64,000 bases of DNA. Source: Halobellus rarus (GTDB taxonomy: Archaea; Halobacteriota; Halobacteria; Halobacteriales; Haloferacaceae). Position numbers and translations under genes: made by a program. Positions 3,167 to 11,476 of the stretch are shown here, piece after piece. The stretch spans positions 1 to 64,000 of the forward strand of contig NZ_JANHDI010000006.1 of the NCBI RefSeq assembly GCF_024494595.1. The letters run 5' to 3'. The notes below the pieces were generated by a model. The model saw nothing but the letters and a program-made list of their open reading frames with translations, was not told the origin of the DNA and did no database searches. The stretch's first letter is position 1. Every line of letters starts with the position of its first letter.

Positions 3167-3531
3167 ACCAACGTATCGTCGTCGGTTGCCTGATTAACTT
3201 ATCGCAGCGGAGACGATCACGGTAATAGTACGAATTATGATACGATCAGTGTGGAGTCGATGATACCGAGCATATCGGACGAGGTCTCGGATTCGGCGAC
3301 TCTCGTCCCTCCGGACGATAGCGCAAGGCGATCACGAGAATCCGGTTTCATCCGCCTGTACACGGGATCGGACCAGTGTTTGTGAACACGCTTAAACAGT
3401 GAGAGCCTCGGTTCAGTCCGAGCATACCGGTCGGTTTTTTCGCTCTCTATCGCCGAGGGAAACACGTCTTCTCCGATTTCTGTAACTTTTTTCCGATACC
3501 CTTACGTGAGGTGCGCGGGACACCAGTTAGT
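3167..3531. promoter_or_regulatory. Divergent intergenic region between folCP and fhs
   Basis: This is about 365 bases without a convincing gene. It is less GC-rich than its neighbours and should hold two divergent promoters. For fhs, the stretch around 3494-3503 (GATACCCTTA) lies about 30 bases before the ATG at 3532, which fits a TATA box for a nearly leaderless mRNA. A 76-codon minus-strand frame at 3235-3465 has no recognisable features and is not called. Confidence 0.45.
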
Positions 3532-5253
3532 ATGACGTCCGAAGACGACGGCGGTTTCCCCACAGACTACGAGATCGCGAAAGACGCGGAGAAAGAACCG
3601 ATCAAAGACGTGCTCGAGCCGTGGGGCATCGACAACGACGACATCGAACTGTACGGCGACTACAAGGCGAAACTGTCCCACGACGGCGTCGACCGTCTCC
3701 GGGACAACGCCGAGAACAAAGAGGGTAACCTCGTACTCGTGACGGGGATGACACCGACGCCGATGGGCGAGGGCAAGACGGTCACGACCGTCGGCCTCGG
3801 TCAGACGCTGAACCACGTCGGCGAGGACGCGATGATCGCGATCCGCGAACCGTCCCTCGGGCCGGTCTTCGGCGTCAAGGGCGGCGCGGCCGGCGGCGGC
3901 TACTCGCAGGTGCTCCCGATGGAGGACATCAACCTCCACTTCACCGGTGACCTCCACGCGCTCACCTCCGCGCACAACCTCATCGCGGCGATGCTCGACG
4001 CGAAGATCTCTCAGGACGAGGAGTTCGACGTCGACATCAACGACGTCGCGTGGCCGCGCGCGATGGACATGAACGAGCGCGCACTCCGCGACATCGTCGT
4101 CGGTCTCGGCGGCAAGTCCGGCGGGACGCCGCGCGAGAGTCGCTTCCTCCTGACGGCGGCCTCCGAGCTGATGGCCGTCCTCTGCCTCGCCGAGGACCTC
4201 GGCGATCTCAAAGAGCGCATCGCGAGCATCATCGTCGCCTACGACACGGACGGCGACCCGATCACCGTCGACGACGTCGACGCGACCGGCCCGGCCGCGA
4301 TGCTCCTGAAGGACGCGATCAAGCCGAACCTGGTCCAGACCATCGAAGGCACGCCCGCGTTCGTCCACGGCGGCCCCTTCGCGAACATCGCCCACGGGAC
4401 CAACTCCCTGATCGCCGACAAGACGGCGTTCGGGATGGGCGATTACCTCGTCACCGAGGCCGGCTTCGGCTCCGACCTCGGCGCGGAGAAGTTCATGAAC
4501 ATCGTCTGCCGCCTCGGCGACATGACGCCGAACGCGGTCGTGCTCGTCTCCACGGTGCGCGCGCTGAAGTACCACGGGATGGGGATGTGGCCCGCCGACC
4601 TCGAAGAGGTCAAGGAGGCCGGCGTCGACGAGCTTGAAGCCGGCTTCGCGAACCTCGACAAGCACGTCCGGAACCTGCAGAAGTTCGGCGTCCCGGTCGT
4701 CGTGGCGCTCAACCGCTTCCCCGACGACACCGACGAGGAAGTCCAGGCCGTCCTCGACCACTGTCGCGAGGACCTCGGCGTGCGCATCGCCGAGTCGAAC
4801 GTCTTCGCCGAGGGCAGCGAGGGCGGCGTCGACCTCGCCGAGAACGTCGTCGAGGCCGTCGACGAGGGCGACGAGGACGACTTCGACCACCTCTACCCGG
4901 ACGACGCGCCGATCAAAGAGAAAATCGAGACCGTCGCGACCGAGGTCTACGGTGCCGAAGGTGTCAACTTCACCGGCGACGCCGAGGACGACATCGAACG
5001 GCTGAACGATCTCGGCTTCGACGACGCCCCGGTCTGTCTCTCGAAGACGTTCCACTCGCTCAGCGACGACCCCTCGAAGAAGGGCGCGCCGTCGGGCTGG
5101 GAACTCGAAGTCCGCGAGCTGTACCCGTCCGCGGGCGCGGGCTTCATCGTCGCGCTGACGGGCGACGTGCTCGACATGCCGGGGCTGCCGGCGACCCCCG
5201 CCGCGGCCGGGATGGACATCGACGAGGACGGCAACATCAGCGGCCTGTTCTAG
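3532..5253 (+). CDS. fhs: Formate--tetrahydrofolate ligase
   Basis: This 573-residue protein makes 10-formyl-tetrahydrofolate from formate, THF and ATP in the cytoplasm. The nucleotide-binding segment TPTPMGEGKTVTTVG is at residues 74-88, followed by the family hallmark REPSLGPVFGVKGGAAGGG. The conserved HGGPFANIAHG stretch and the C-terminal end (LPATPAAAGMDID) are intact, and the length is normal for the family. I prefer the ATG at 3532 to the in-frame GTG at 3511, because a TATA-like element lies about 30 bases upstream of it. A strong hairpin and T-run follow the stop. It sits beside folCP, with a formate dehydrogenase gene 2 kb downstream. Confidence 0.96.
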   Translation: MTSEDDGGFPTDYEIAKDAEKEPIKDVLEPWGIDNDDIELYGDYKAKLSHDGVDRLRDNAENKEGNLVLVTGMTPTPMGEGKTVTTVGLGQTLNHVGEDAMIAIREPSLGPVFGVKGGAAGGGYSQVLPMEDINLHFTGDLHALTSAHNLIAAMLDAKISQDEEFDVDINDVAWPRAMDMNERALRDIVVGLGGKSGGTPRESRFLLTAASELMAVLCLAEDLGDLKERIASIIVAYDTDGDPITVDDVDATGPAAMLLKDAIKPNLVQTIEGTPAFVHGGPFANIAHGTNSLIADKTAFGMGDYLVTEAGFGSDLGAEKFMNIVCRLGDMTPNAVVLVSTVRALKYHGMGMWPADLEEVKEAGVDELEAGFANLDKHVRNLQKFGVPVVVALNRFPDDTDEEVQAVLDHCREDLGVRIAESNVFAEGSEGGVDLAENVVEAVDEGDEDDFDHLYPDDAPIKEKIETVATEVYGAEGVNFTGDAEDDIERLNDLGFDDAPVCLSKTFHSLSDDPSKKGAPSGWELEVRELYPSAGAGFIVALTGDVLDMPGLPATPAAAGMDIDEDGNISGLF

Positions 5254-7434: not shown

Positions 7435-9549
7435 ATGTCGAGTGACGAACAGGACCCGGTGAAGACGATCTGCCCGTACTGCGGCGTCGGCTGCGGGATC
7501 CAGGTACAGCCCGGCGAGGACCCCGGGGATATGCGGTTCATGCCGTGGGGCGACGCGCCGGTCAACGACGGGCGCGTCTGCATCAAAGGCGGCGCGGCGA
7601 CACAGGTCGTCGACCACGAGGACCGTCTCACCGACCCGCTGATCAAGGAGGACGGCGAGTTCCGCGAGGCCTCCTGGGAGGAGGCCTACGAGCGGATCGT
7701 CTCCGAGATGGAGGAGATCCGCGAGGAGTTCGGCCCCGACGCGATGGGGTTCTTCGGCTCCTCGAAGACGATGAACGAGGAGAACTACCTCCTCCAGAAG
7801 CTCGCGCGGCGCTACGGCACCAACAACGTCGACAACTGCACGCGGATGTGCCACGCGTCGACGGTGTGGGCGCTGCGCACGAGCCTCGGCGCGGGCGCGA
7901 TGACGAACAGTATGGAGGACCTCGAGGCGGAGGCCGACGTGCTGTGGATCCAGGGGGCGAACCCCGCCGAACAGCACCCGATCGCCAACAGCAACTACTT
8001 CCGACAGGCCGTCCTCGACGGCGCGACGGTCATCCAGGTCGATCCCCACGCCAACAAGACGACGACCTCCTTCGACATCGAGGAGACCGAGCGTCACCAG
8101 CACCTCCAGGTCGAACCCGGCGCGGACATCCCGCTTCTCAACATCGTCCTGAAGACGGTGTTGGAGAACGACTGGGTCGACGAGGAGTTCGTCGAAGAGC
8201 GCACCGAGGGCATCGAGGACCTCCGAGAGACCCTCGAAGACTTCGACAAGGAGGCCGCCGCCGAGGAGGCCGGCGTCCCGCTCGAAGACATCGAACTCGC
8301 CGCCGAGAAGTACGCCACGGCCGACAACGCCGCCATCTTCACCGGGATGGGGATGAGCCAGCACACCTGCGGCGTCGACAACGTCCAGAACGAGATCAAC
8401 CTCGCGCTCATCACCGGCAACCTCGGCCGGCCGGGGACGGGCGTGAACCCGCTCCGCGGACAGAACAACGTCCAGGGGACGAGCGACGTCGGCGCGATGC
8501 CGAACGTCCTGCCCGGCTACCAGCTCGTCGACGACGACGAGGCGAGAGAGAGCGTCGAGGACGTCTGGGGGTTCGAGATCCCGGACGAGCCCGGCCTGAC
8601 GAACGTCGAGATCACCCACAGCATCGGCGAGCAGATCCAGGGGATGTACGTGATGGGCGAGAACCCCGTCATGTCCGAACCCAACGCCAACCACGTCTCC
8701 GATCTCCTCGACGAGCTCGGCTTCCTGGTGGTGCAGGACATCTTCATGACCGAGACGGCCGAGTACGCCGACGTCGTGCTGCCGGCGACGACGTGGGCCG
8801 AGCGCGGCGGCACCGTCACCAACACCGACCGGCGCGTCCAGCGGATGCGCGGCGTCCAGAAGGTCCACGAGAACACCGAGCACGACCTCGACATCCTCTG
8901 TGAGGTCGGCACGCGGCTCTTCGGCGAGGGCTTCGACTTCGACACGCCCGAGGAAGCGTTCGAGGAGCTCCGTCAGGTCTGCCCCAGCTACCACGGGATG
9001 ACCTACGACGCGCTCGGCGAGGAGGGCATCCACTGGCCCTGCTACGAGGAGGGCGACGAGGGCGATCAGTACCTCTACGAGGACGGCTTCGAGACCGAGA
9101 GCGGCCTCGGTCAGATCGAGGGCGTCACCCACCAGCCGCCGAAGGAGGTGCCCGACGAGGAGTACCCGCTCATCCTCACGACCGCGCGCCTCGAAGAGCA
9201 CTACAACACCGGGACGATGAGCCGGCGCTCGCCGCGGCTCAACAAGCAGTACCCCGAGAACTTCGTCGACGTCCACCCGAACGACGCCGAGCGCTACGGC
9301 ATCGAGGACGGCGAGAAGATCACCCTGAAGTCCCGACGCGGCGAGATCGAGGTCGAGGCCCACGTCACCGACGACATCAAGGAGGGCGTCGTCTGGACGA
9401 CGCCGCACTTCGCGGCCGCCTCCGCGAACCTGCTCACGAACGACGTGCTCGACGAGCGGGCGAAGATCCCCGAGTACAAGGCGTCAGCCGCTGAGATAGA
9501 GGTCGGCGTCGAGCCGTCCGACGCGGGCGACGCGCCGGCCGACGACTGA
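7435..9549 (+). CDS. fdhF: Formate dehydrogenase, molybdopterin catalytic subunit (FdhF type)
   Basis: This 704-residue member of the DMSO-reductase superfamily oxidises formate to CO2 at a Mo/W-bis-MGD centre. The N-terminal [4Fe-4S] motif uses Cys13, Cys16, Cys20 and Cys49. NCTRMCH at 134-140 matches the formate dehydrogenase active site, with Cys139 in place of the selenocysteine of E. coli FdhF and the catalytic His140 behind it. The C-terminal molybdopterin-dinucleotide-binding domain is present from roughly residue 570. There is no N-terminal ferredoxin-like domain and no electron-transfer subunit gene next door, so ferredoxin or another soluble carrier is the likely partner. It converges on an AOR-like gene. 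Confidence 0.9.
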   Translation: MSSDEQDPVKTICPYCGVGCGIQVQPGEDPGDMRFMPWGDAPVNDGRVCIKGGAATQVVDHEDRLTDPLIKEDGEFREASWEEAYERIVSEMEEIREEFGPDAMGFFGSSKTMNEENYLLQKLARRYGTNNVDNCTRMCHASTVWALRTSLGAGAMTNSMEDLEAEADVLWIQGANPAEQHPIANSNYFRQAVLDGATVIQVDPHANKTTTSFDIEETERHQHLQVEPGADIPLLNIVLKTVLENDWVDEEFVEERTEGIEDLRETLEDFDKEAAAEEAGVPLEDIELAAEKYATADNAAIFTGMGMSQHTCGVDNVQNEINLALITGNLGRPGTGVNPLRGQNNVQGTSDVGAMPNVLPGYQLVDDDEARESVEDVWGFEIPDEPGLTNVEITHSIGEQIQGMYVMGENPVMSEPNANHVSDLLDELGFLVVQDIFMTETAEYADVVLPATTWAERGGTVTNTDRRVQRMRGVQKVHENTEHDLDILCEVGTRLFGEGFDFDTPEEAFEELRQVCPSYHGMTYDALGEEGIHWPCYEEGDEGDQYLYEDGFETESGLGQIEGVTHQPPKEVPDEEYPLILTTARLEEHYNTGTMSRRSPRLNKQYPENFVDVHPNDAERYGIEDGEKITLKSRRGEIEVEAHVTDDIKEGVVWTTPHFAAASANLLTNDVLDERAKIPEYKASAAEIEVGVEPSDAGDAPADD

Positions 9550-9652: not shown

Positions 9653-11476
9653 TCAGTCGCTACAGCGCACGGCAGACTCGCGAGCGACGGGCGTGTCGTC
9701 GTCGACGACGTCGAGGAGGTTCAACCGATCGAGGAGGTCGCGGGTCGGAATCCCCGCCTCGTTCCACCCGCGTGCGGCGTAGTACCGGCGGCGCAGACCG
9801 TCGAACCAGTCGGTGTCGATGGCGTCGCCCGACGACGGTCCGCCGGCGAGCGGCCGTTCGAACACGGACGGGAGCGTCTCGTCCGACGCGTCGAACCCCT
9901 CGCGGACGTTGAACAGGCGGGTCAGCGTCCAGGTCCGCTCGCCGACGCGGAGCAGTTCGGCAGCGTCCGTCGGTGCCGTGGCGTCGGCCGTCGACAGCCA
10001 CTCCGCGCCGAGGTCGTCCTCCAGCACCGCACCCGCGAAGTCGTCGGCGATCAGGCTCCAGAGGACCGAGGTGATCGTCTGTTCGCGCATCACGAGTCGA
10101 ACCCGATCGGTGTCGTCCCAGGAATCCCCTTCGAACACCTCCGTCTCGGCCGGGAGCGAGCGCCTGTGGCACGCGCCGCGGTCGCTCGTCGCGTACGCGA
10201 GTGCCATCGCCGGCGACCCCCGGGGGTCGTACGCCGGGAGTTCCATCGACTTGATCGTCGGCACGAGCTCCGCGCCACCGAGTCGGTCGGCGGCGGCCTC
10301 GACGCCGTCGGCGAGGGCGGCCGCGACGCCGTCTTCCCGGCGAGCGATCGACGCGATGAGCTCTCGGGCAGCCGACTCGTCCCCGAAGTCGGGGTCCGAA
10401 CCGAGGGAGTCCGGTGCGTCCACGATGCCGGCCTCGACGGCCCTCACGGTCCAGGCGACGGCGTTTCCGGCGCTGATGACGTCGATGCCGAGCCGGTCAC
10501 AGACCTGACCGAGGGCGGCGACCGCGTCGAAGTCGTCGATTCCGAGGCCCGCACCGAGGGACATCTGCGTGGCTCCGCGCGGCACCGACTCGCCGGTCTC
10601 CGTCCGGACGCGGAACCCGCCGGGGATCTCGGAGTTTCCGTCGGTCTCTCGCTCGACCGCGGCGTCGCGGGCGGCGTCGATGCCGATGTCCGCCGCGCCG
10701 TCGAAGGAGCCCTCCTGCCAGCCACGGGTCGAGAGGACGCCCACCTCGTCGGCGAAGTCGACGGTTTCGAGCGTCGCGCTCGCGGCGTGCCAGCGGCCGA
10801 CGTCGTGTTCGCGGTACCGACGTTCGTACTCGTCCCGGAGCGCCGCGACCGCCGGAGACGGGTCGGGTCGCGGTCCGCGGGCGACGACCGCCTTCAGCCG
10901 TTTCGACCCCATCACCGCGCCCGCGCCGCCGCGGCCGGCGTGGTGGTCGCCGCCGTCGGACGCGATTGTCGCGTAGCGCACTCGGTTCTCGCCCGCCGGC
11001 CCGACGCACGCGACAGGATCTGCCAACGCGTCGCAGGTCTCGACGACGTCCCGACCCCAGAGGTCCCTCGCGGACGAGAGCGTCGCCGTCCCGTCGTCGA
11101 GTTCCAGTACCGTCGGTTCCTCGGCCCGACCCGTGATCGCCACGCCGAGCGCGCCGTCGAGTGCGCCGACGAGGGCGGCGGCGAACTCGCCGCCGCTGTA
11201 GGAATCGAGAAACGCGCCCGTCAGCGGCGACCGGGTGATCGCCGCGAACTGGGGCTCGCCCGGGAGCAAACCGCTGAGTGGGCCGAGCGTGAACAGGAGG
11301 TAGTTGTCCGGACCGAGCGGATCAGTTCCCGGTTCAAGGCGGTCGTACAGGTACCGTGCCCCCAGACCTTTGCCCCCGACGTACTCTGAGAGCCACCGGT
11401 CCGGCAGTCGCTCGCGTTCGACGGAGCCGGCGCTCAGATCGACGTGAAGCAAGTCCGTGGGGGCCCCGTCAGTCAT
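9653..11476 (-). CDS. Aldehyde:ferredoxin oxidoreductase family protein lacking the Fe-S cysteines
   Basis: This 607-residue protein belongs to the tungstopterin AOR family: the N-terminal beta domain (VGGKGLGARYLYDRL, NYLLFTLGPLSGLLPG), the AGRGGAGAVMGSKRLKAVV stretch and CDRLGIDVISAG are all recognisable. The start is the ATG at 11476; the frame extends upstream, but the conserved N-terminus begins here. AOR enzymes carry a CxxCxxxC motif before the last of these segments and a fourth Cys near the end. Here the first region reads EIPGGFRVRTETGESVPRG and has no cysteine, and the C-terminal Cys is also absent (VLWSLIADDF). The protein may bind the pterin without the [4Fe-4S] cluster, or be an inactive or altered paralogue. 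It converges with fdhF. Confidence 0.85.
   Translation of the reverse strand: MTDGAPTDLLHVDLSAGSVERERLPDRWLSEYVGGKGLGARYLYDRLEPGTDPLGPDNYLLFTLGPLSGLLPGEPQFAAITRSPLTGAFLDSYSGGEFAAALVGALDGALGVAITGRAEEPTVLELDDGTATLSSARDLWGRDVVETCDALADPVACVGPAGENRVRYATIASDGGDHHAGRGGAGAVMGSKRLKAVVARGPRPDPSPAVAALRDEYERRYREHDVGRWHAASATLETVDFADEVGVLSTRGWQEGSFDGAADIGIDAARDAAVERETDGNSEIPGGFRVRTETGESVPRGATQMSLGAGLGIDDFDAVAALGQVCDRLGIDVISAGNAVAWTVRAVEAGIVDAPDSLGSDPDFGDESAARELIASIARREDGVAAALADGVEAAADRLGGAELVPTIKSMELPAYDPRGSPAMALAYATSDRGACHRRSLPAETEVFEGDSWDDTDRVRLVMREQTITSVLWSLIADDFAGAVLEDDLGAEWLSTADATAPTDAAELLRVGERTWTLTRLFNVREGFDASDETLPSVFERPLAGGPSSGDAIDTDWFDGLRRRYYAARGWNEAGIPTRDLLDRLNLLDVVDDDTPVARESAVRCSD

Follow-up and report, generated by a model that had tools for sequence, protein, structure and literature searches.

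What does a member of the aldehyde:ferredoxin oxidoreductase (AOR) family do once every ligand of its iron-sulfur cluster has gone? All known members of the family bind a tungsten or molybdenum bis-pterin cofactor (PMC12096430), and Class I WORs are defined as carrying one [4Fe-4S] cluster (PMC13328260). The window analysed here, a stretch of 64,000 nucleotides from Halobellus rarus, contains a gene (9653..11476, minus strand, with its ATG at 11476 and its stop at 9653) whose 607-residue product, P0001, has lost these ligands and is here called the Cys-free AOR. The protein is covered end to end by AFOR_N (2.8e-63) and AFOR_C (9e-89), PF02730 and PF01314 scoring 213.7 and 298.7 bits against cut-offs of 29.8 and 27; AFOR domains were its only Pfam matches, and the FdhD-NarQ domain (PF02634) was not among them. 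An AF2 model (pLDDT 83.5, pTM 0.89) displays the whole AOR fold, matching the Pyrococcus furiosus AOR (PfAOR; 1AOR) with Z 43.5, TM 0.88 and rmsd 2.4 over 573 aligned residues at 31% identity, and searches of the PDB and with Foldseek returned AOR-family structures only, the nearest solved ones all being tungsten enzymes of the family. Confidence in the model is low at residues 260-302, the site of the cluster loop and of the catalytic E311-Y312-E313 motif.

The original prediction, made from this one sequence, counted only five cysteines, none of them arranged as CxxCxxxC, and concluded that both the three-cysteine region and the C-terminal ligand region had been replaced and that the normal electron path was missing. 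These points held up, both in P0001 and across 83 full-length haloarchaeal members of its clade from many genera (canonical positions are numbered below after PfAOR). The cysteines of P0001 lie at residues 148, 157, 326, 436 and 605; only 157, 326 and 436 are conserved in the clade, none of them in the rebuilt loop 276-303, and neither CxxCxxxC, CxxC nor any C-x(1-3)-C occurs anywhere in P0001 or in the 83 relatives. The canonical C288, C291 and C295 align with a gap, a Ser and a Gly, and C494 with D478, an Asp in 83/83; the [4Fe-4S] ligand set of WorL Class I (CxxCxxxC plus the fourth Cys) was found in 0/83 clade members, all four cluster cysteines having gone.

This loss is genuine and widely shared. 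A scan of 84,980 genomes placed the relatives of P0001 at 65 loci, all haloarchaeal, and a class-wide search found matches in 164 of 292 genomes and 46 of 77 genera; a small number of these matches belong to a Cys-bearing sister clade or to other paralogues. In the tree the Cys-free members form one clade with support of 100/100, which settles whether a conserved Cys-lacking clade exists, a matter that the original prediction had left for checking. The sister clade (L100-L103; Halorubrum and relatives) is small, shares 42-44% identity with P0001 and keeps its four cysteines and E311-Y312-E313 intact, so the loss of the cluster is derived, and a single loss in the ancestor of the clade is the simplest reading. 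Pairwise dN/dS values of 0.07-0.24 indicate that the Cys-free AOR is under purifying selection and, together with the 83/83 conservation, rule out a pseudogene or a sequencing error, the latter also because paralogues in the same genome (three further AFOR_C genes, with CHSCPVAC, CSQCAFAC and CSVCAFAC) and the sister clade retain the motif. Individual copies appear to be frameshifted or split at L084, L090, L095 and G026:C1:1890836-1892598. In the record titled Halobellus captivus ZY8 (L086), both the copy and its neighbourhood are Halorubrum-like and differ from those of strain ZY21 (L036), which raises the possibility of a mistaken species label.

The rebuilding reaches into the active site. 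Residues 276-303 (RETDGNSEIPGG...VPRGAT; 10568..10651, minus strand) take the place of CxxCxxxC and the E311-Y312-E313 region; within them R276, G286, F288, V298, R300 and G301 are fixed in the clade (R300 in 82/83), and the catalytic triplet has become R300-G301-(A/G/S)302, with Ala, Gly or Ser at the Glu313 position in 83/83. Further along, the segment LWSLIADDF (residues 472-480; 10037..10063, minus strand) has the invariant D478 for the fourth Cys and an invariant W473 for D489. Six of these replacements, namely G286 (C295), R300 (E311), G301 (Y312), A/G/S302 (E313), W473 (D489) and D478 (C494), are both fixed and unique to the clade, and 24 positions are fixed differently from both the sister and canonical AORs, many at 227-323 and also at 472-478. 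Of the second-shell set Thr243/Glu313/Tyr427/His448 of WorL Class I, the Glu alone is replaced: T243 (T235 in P0001, codon at 10772..10774), Y427 (Y416, codon at 10229..10231) and the active-site H448 (H437, in RGACHRR at residues 433-439; 10160..10180), all on the minus strand, are each kept in 83/83, and R186, D343 and C447 are kept in the clade as well. The earlier claim that the pterin-domain motifs survive can therefore be upheld only in part, since the second DxxGLC motif has been lost along with E311-Y312-E313.

The cofactor pocket, assessed from alignments, differs from that of PfAOR at R182 (H178), A183 (H179), N93 (Y93) and D489 (W473). Pocket residues Y93, H178, H179 and R439, along with a DF motif, are common to the Cys-free clade and its sister, which differs in having the four cysteines and E311-Y312-E313; because these odd residues also occur in a cluster-bearing protein, decay of the pterin pocket was rejected as an explanation. 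The AOR shell is kept, but neither the wire nor the acid/base needed for aldehyde oxidation remains. As far as the alignments can tell, the pterin site is probably kept too, and the pocket shared with the sister suggests that P0001 may bind a W or Mo bis-pterin with a bridging Mg.

Within the window, the gene converges with fdhA (7435..9549, plus strand), encoding a formate dehydrogenase (FDH) alpha subunit of 704 residues (TIGR01591, 744.8 bits against a cut-off of 666) with the Cys-His active-site motif NCTRMCHAS. A RidA-family gene (PF01042; 11591..11971, minus strand) lies directly upstream on the same strand as the Cys-free AOR, across a gap of 114 bp, and is its neighbour in Halobellus loci too; the two genes possibly form one transcript. 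A formate-tetrahydrofolate ligase (3511..5253, plus strand; Pfam FTHFS, 6.5e-248; cluster c15) is likewise a conserved Halobellus neighbour.

Clustering the ORFs of 66 loci (with MoaA, FdhB and NrfD named from sequence motifs, not by family scan) extended this picture, as at least one of YqeC, FDH-alpha, MobA, MoaA, the MOT1 molybdate transporter, the NarJ/TorD chaperone, FdhB and NrfD was found within 6 kb in 54 of them. yqeC itself lies within 6 kb in 34/66 loci, upstream in the same orientation in some and divergent or downstream in others, and since its orientation and position vary in this way the linkage has survived rearrangement. In other loci mobA, moaA or fdhA lies near the Cys-free AOR. 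Locus L116 has the order AOR, YqeC, MobA and, close by, FDH and a NuoF-like gene, and in H. rarus YqeC and MobA are adjacent to each other on the same contig, 82 kb from the Cys-free AOR. One genus (g28) has a second yqeC copy beside the Cys-free AOR, missing where the Cys-free AOR is missing. The sister gene L103 (5084-6931, minus strand) is clustered with two aldehyde dehydrogenases, an FAD oxidoreductase and an ABC transporter, and is likely to be an amine or polyamine catabolic aldehyde oxidase. A DUF7124 gene (L114 4233-5201; cluster c9) directly follows the Cys-free AOR in several genera.

The co-occurrence with formate dehydrogenase that the original prediction had proposed to look for proved nearly exact. 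Among 148 genomes of the host family, the Cys-free AOR and an FDH of class A, B or N are found together in 103, the gene alone in 1, the FDH alone in 2 and neither in 42 (classes A, B, C and D having been assigned post hoc, on the basis of score and ORF length, once the data had been seen; Fisher 2.5e-33, a value that, like the other p-values given here, overstates the association because the genomes are related). The sole gene-only genome is 62% complete, and the FDH-only exceptions are two class-B genomes (G052 and G093). Nine genera include carriers and non-carriers alike, and gene and FDH match perfectly in eight of these. The architectures of classes A, B and N are a 700-aa protein alone, a 1100-aa protein with a NuoF-like partner and a Tat-exported protein (motif RRSFLK) with cytochrome b561; because the linked classes differ so, what is constant is the FDH catalytic subunit, not the electron acceptor. 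The Cys-free AOR is carried by 37/37 class N genomes, in 25 of them within 10 kb, and the apparent absence of FDH-alpha from three carriers (G014, G030 and G077) was rejected, all three having this exported class. The Cys-His motif is also present in classes C and D, which show no tie to the Cys-free AOR. In a further FDH class, of about 690-790 aa, a separate yqeC directly adjoins the FDH gene and the Cys-free AOR is missing (G065, G124, G102, G127, G133 and others).

The association with yqeC is similar (103 genomes with both, 1 with the gene only, 15 with YqeC only and 29 with neither; p 1.2e-18), the one carrier of 104 that lacks yqeC being a genome that is 79% complete. Genomes without a bis-MGD enzyme (PF01568) have the Cys-free AOR in 0/11 cases (p 6e-7); canonical AORs are present in 3/11.

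How halobacterial FDHs mature without FdhD is a published open question (PMC10609526). In agreement with a remark in that paper, FdhD (PF02634) was found in 0/148 host-family genomes, the same search recovering it in eight controls (E. coli, B. subtilis, M. jannaschii and five others), and FDH-alpha genes are present in at least 122 of the 148, with the Cys-His active-site motif where checked. YqeC, named as a selenium-cofactor protein, is found in 118/148 genomes and a genuine SelD in 1 only (G039, beside YqeC), which rules out a selenium link through YqeC; its role in haloarchaea is probably selenium-independent. In C. difficile, deletion of yqeC gave no phenotype (PMC11448449).

The reading that we favour, at a probability of roughly 0.45, is that a repurposed AOR shell works alongside YqeC and a MobA-like transferase, building, holding or delivering the bis-pterin cofactor of haloarchaeal FDHs that do without FdhD. 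A two-domain shell that is normally a clamp for W/Mo bis-pterin, stripped of its [4Fe-4S] wire and catalytic acid, would still bind pterin and would act on FDH, either as a scaffold on which metal-bis-MPT awaits guanylylation by MobA or as a carrier and sulfuration platform that substitutes for FdhD. Its link with an exported FDH suggests that this action would take place in the cytoplasm before export; class N being Tat-exported, maturation before export fits a cytoplasmic partner better than the supply of substrate does. The pocket residues in common with the Cys-bearing sister argue for this role, as does the joint loss of cluster and catalytic acid. Against it, YqeC's own role is unproven, and the retention of T243, Y427 and H448 hints at some remaining catalysis. 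More tentatively still, the AOR fold may now serve as a non-redox carrier or scaffold for metal-pterin and, together with YqeC and MobA, do the work of FdhD in bis-MGD assembly, which would make it a new class of Mo/W cofactor maturase derived from an enzyme. A universal replacement for FdhD is ruled out, because FDHs of classes C and D, with their Cys-His motif, exist without the Cys-free AOR and without FdhD alike.

The original prediction, a non-redox or differently wired tungstoenzyme, survives as one of several readings, although YqeC, MobA, the three FDH classes and the absence of FdhD favour FDH maturation over it. In its strongest form, which is the main rival and which we regard as unlikely but worth serious attention, the protein would be a cluster-free Mo/W-bis-pterin enzyme that is matured by YqeC and serves formate or C1 metabolism with a chemistry of its own, either non-redox or a self-contained transfer of oxygen or hydride. 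Tungsten chemistry of a non-redox kind has a precedent in acetylene hydratase (PMC12096430), and the invariant Arg in place of the E311/E313 pair could bind a carboxylate or other oxyanion. The conservation of this residue and of T243, Y427 and H448 speaks for such an enzyme, as does the formate-tetrahydrofolate ligase nearby in Halobellus; the second yqeC of g28 comes and goes with the gene as if the AOR were a client of YqeC. A substrate-side role nevertheless leaves unexplained both the tight tie to a Tat-exported FDH and the missing tie to classes C and D, and the usual catalytic Glu is lost.

The substitutions at R182, A183, N93 and D489 and the loss of the second DxxGLC alter the cofactor pocket, and might point instead to a pseudoenzyme without pterin that serves FDH as a structural chaperone or regulator. 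We find this rather improbable: H178, H179 and Y93 are no sign of cofactor loss, because the sister with cluster and Glu has them, the His, Tyr and Thr of the active site never vary, and pterin chemistry is what the neighbouring yqeC and mobA genes suggest. Least probable by far is an aldehyde oxidoreductase whose electrons leave by another route. Its fold and most of its second-shell residues are those of AOR, and molybdo-enzymes without an Fe-S cluster exist, for example TorA/DorA, but Glu313 and all four cluster cysteines are gone throughout the clade and the gene has no aldehyde-pathway neighbours, unlike the sister L103.

Set against known systems, the Cys-free AOR shares its fold and T243, Y427 and H448 with PfAOR and the Class I WORs, from which it differs in having no cluster ligand, no E313 and no second DxxGLC. 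The four-Cys rule is also broken by P. furiosus WOR4, which showed no aldehyde activity (PMC12096430), but it has lost a single Cys (to Gly) and retains an Fe3S4 cluster, whereas the Cys-free clade loses all four. Other named exceptions are ASOR (three Cys and an Asp) and BamB/YdhV, with an extra Cys on the metal (PMC12096430, PMC13328260). BamB/YdhV resemble the Cys-free AOR in fold (BamB 4z3w, Z 36.2) and in a non-standard second shell, and their chemistry is non-aldehyde or unknown; P0001 has no counterpart of their Cys ligand to the metal, no cysteine lying near the rebuilt site. The likeness to FdhD, a sulfurtransferase and cofactor chaperone of FDH, is confined to the proposed role, an FDH-dedicated handling of the bis-pterin cofactor: fold and sequence are unrelated, and FdhD has CxxC sulfur-transfer cysteines where the Cys-free AOR has none.

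In a 2025 review and a 2026 classification (PMC12096430, PMC13328260), the widest departure from the four-Cys rule is one changed Cys (WOR4, ASOR), and no description of an AOR clade lacking all four was found in the literature searched, outside which lay subscription papers and supplements. The near-exact match to certain FDHs supplies a named candidate gene for FDH maturation without FdhD in halobacteria (PMC10609526), and the Cys-free AOR gives YqeC a selenium-free context.
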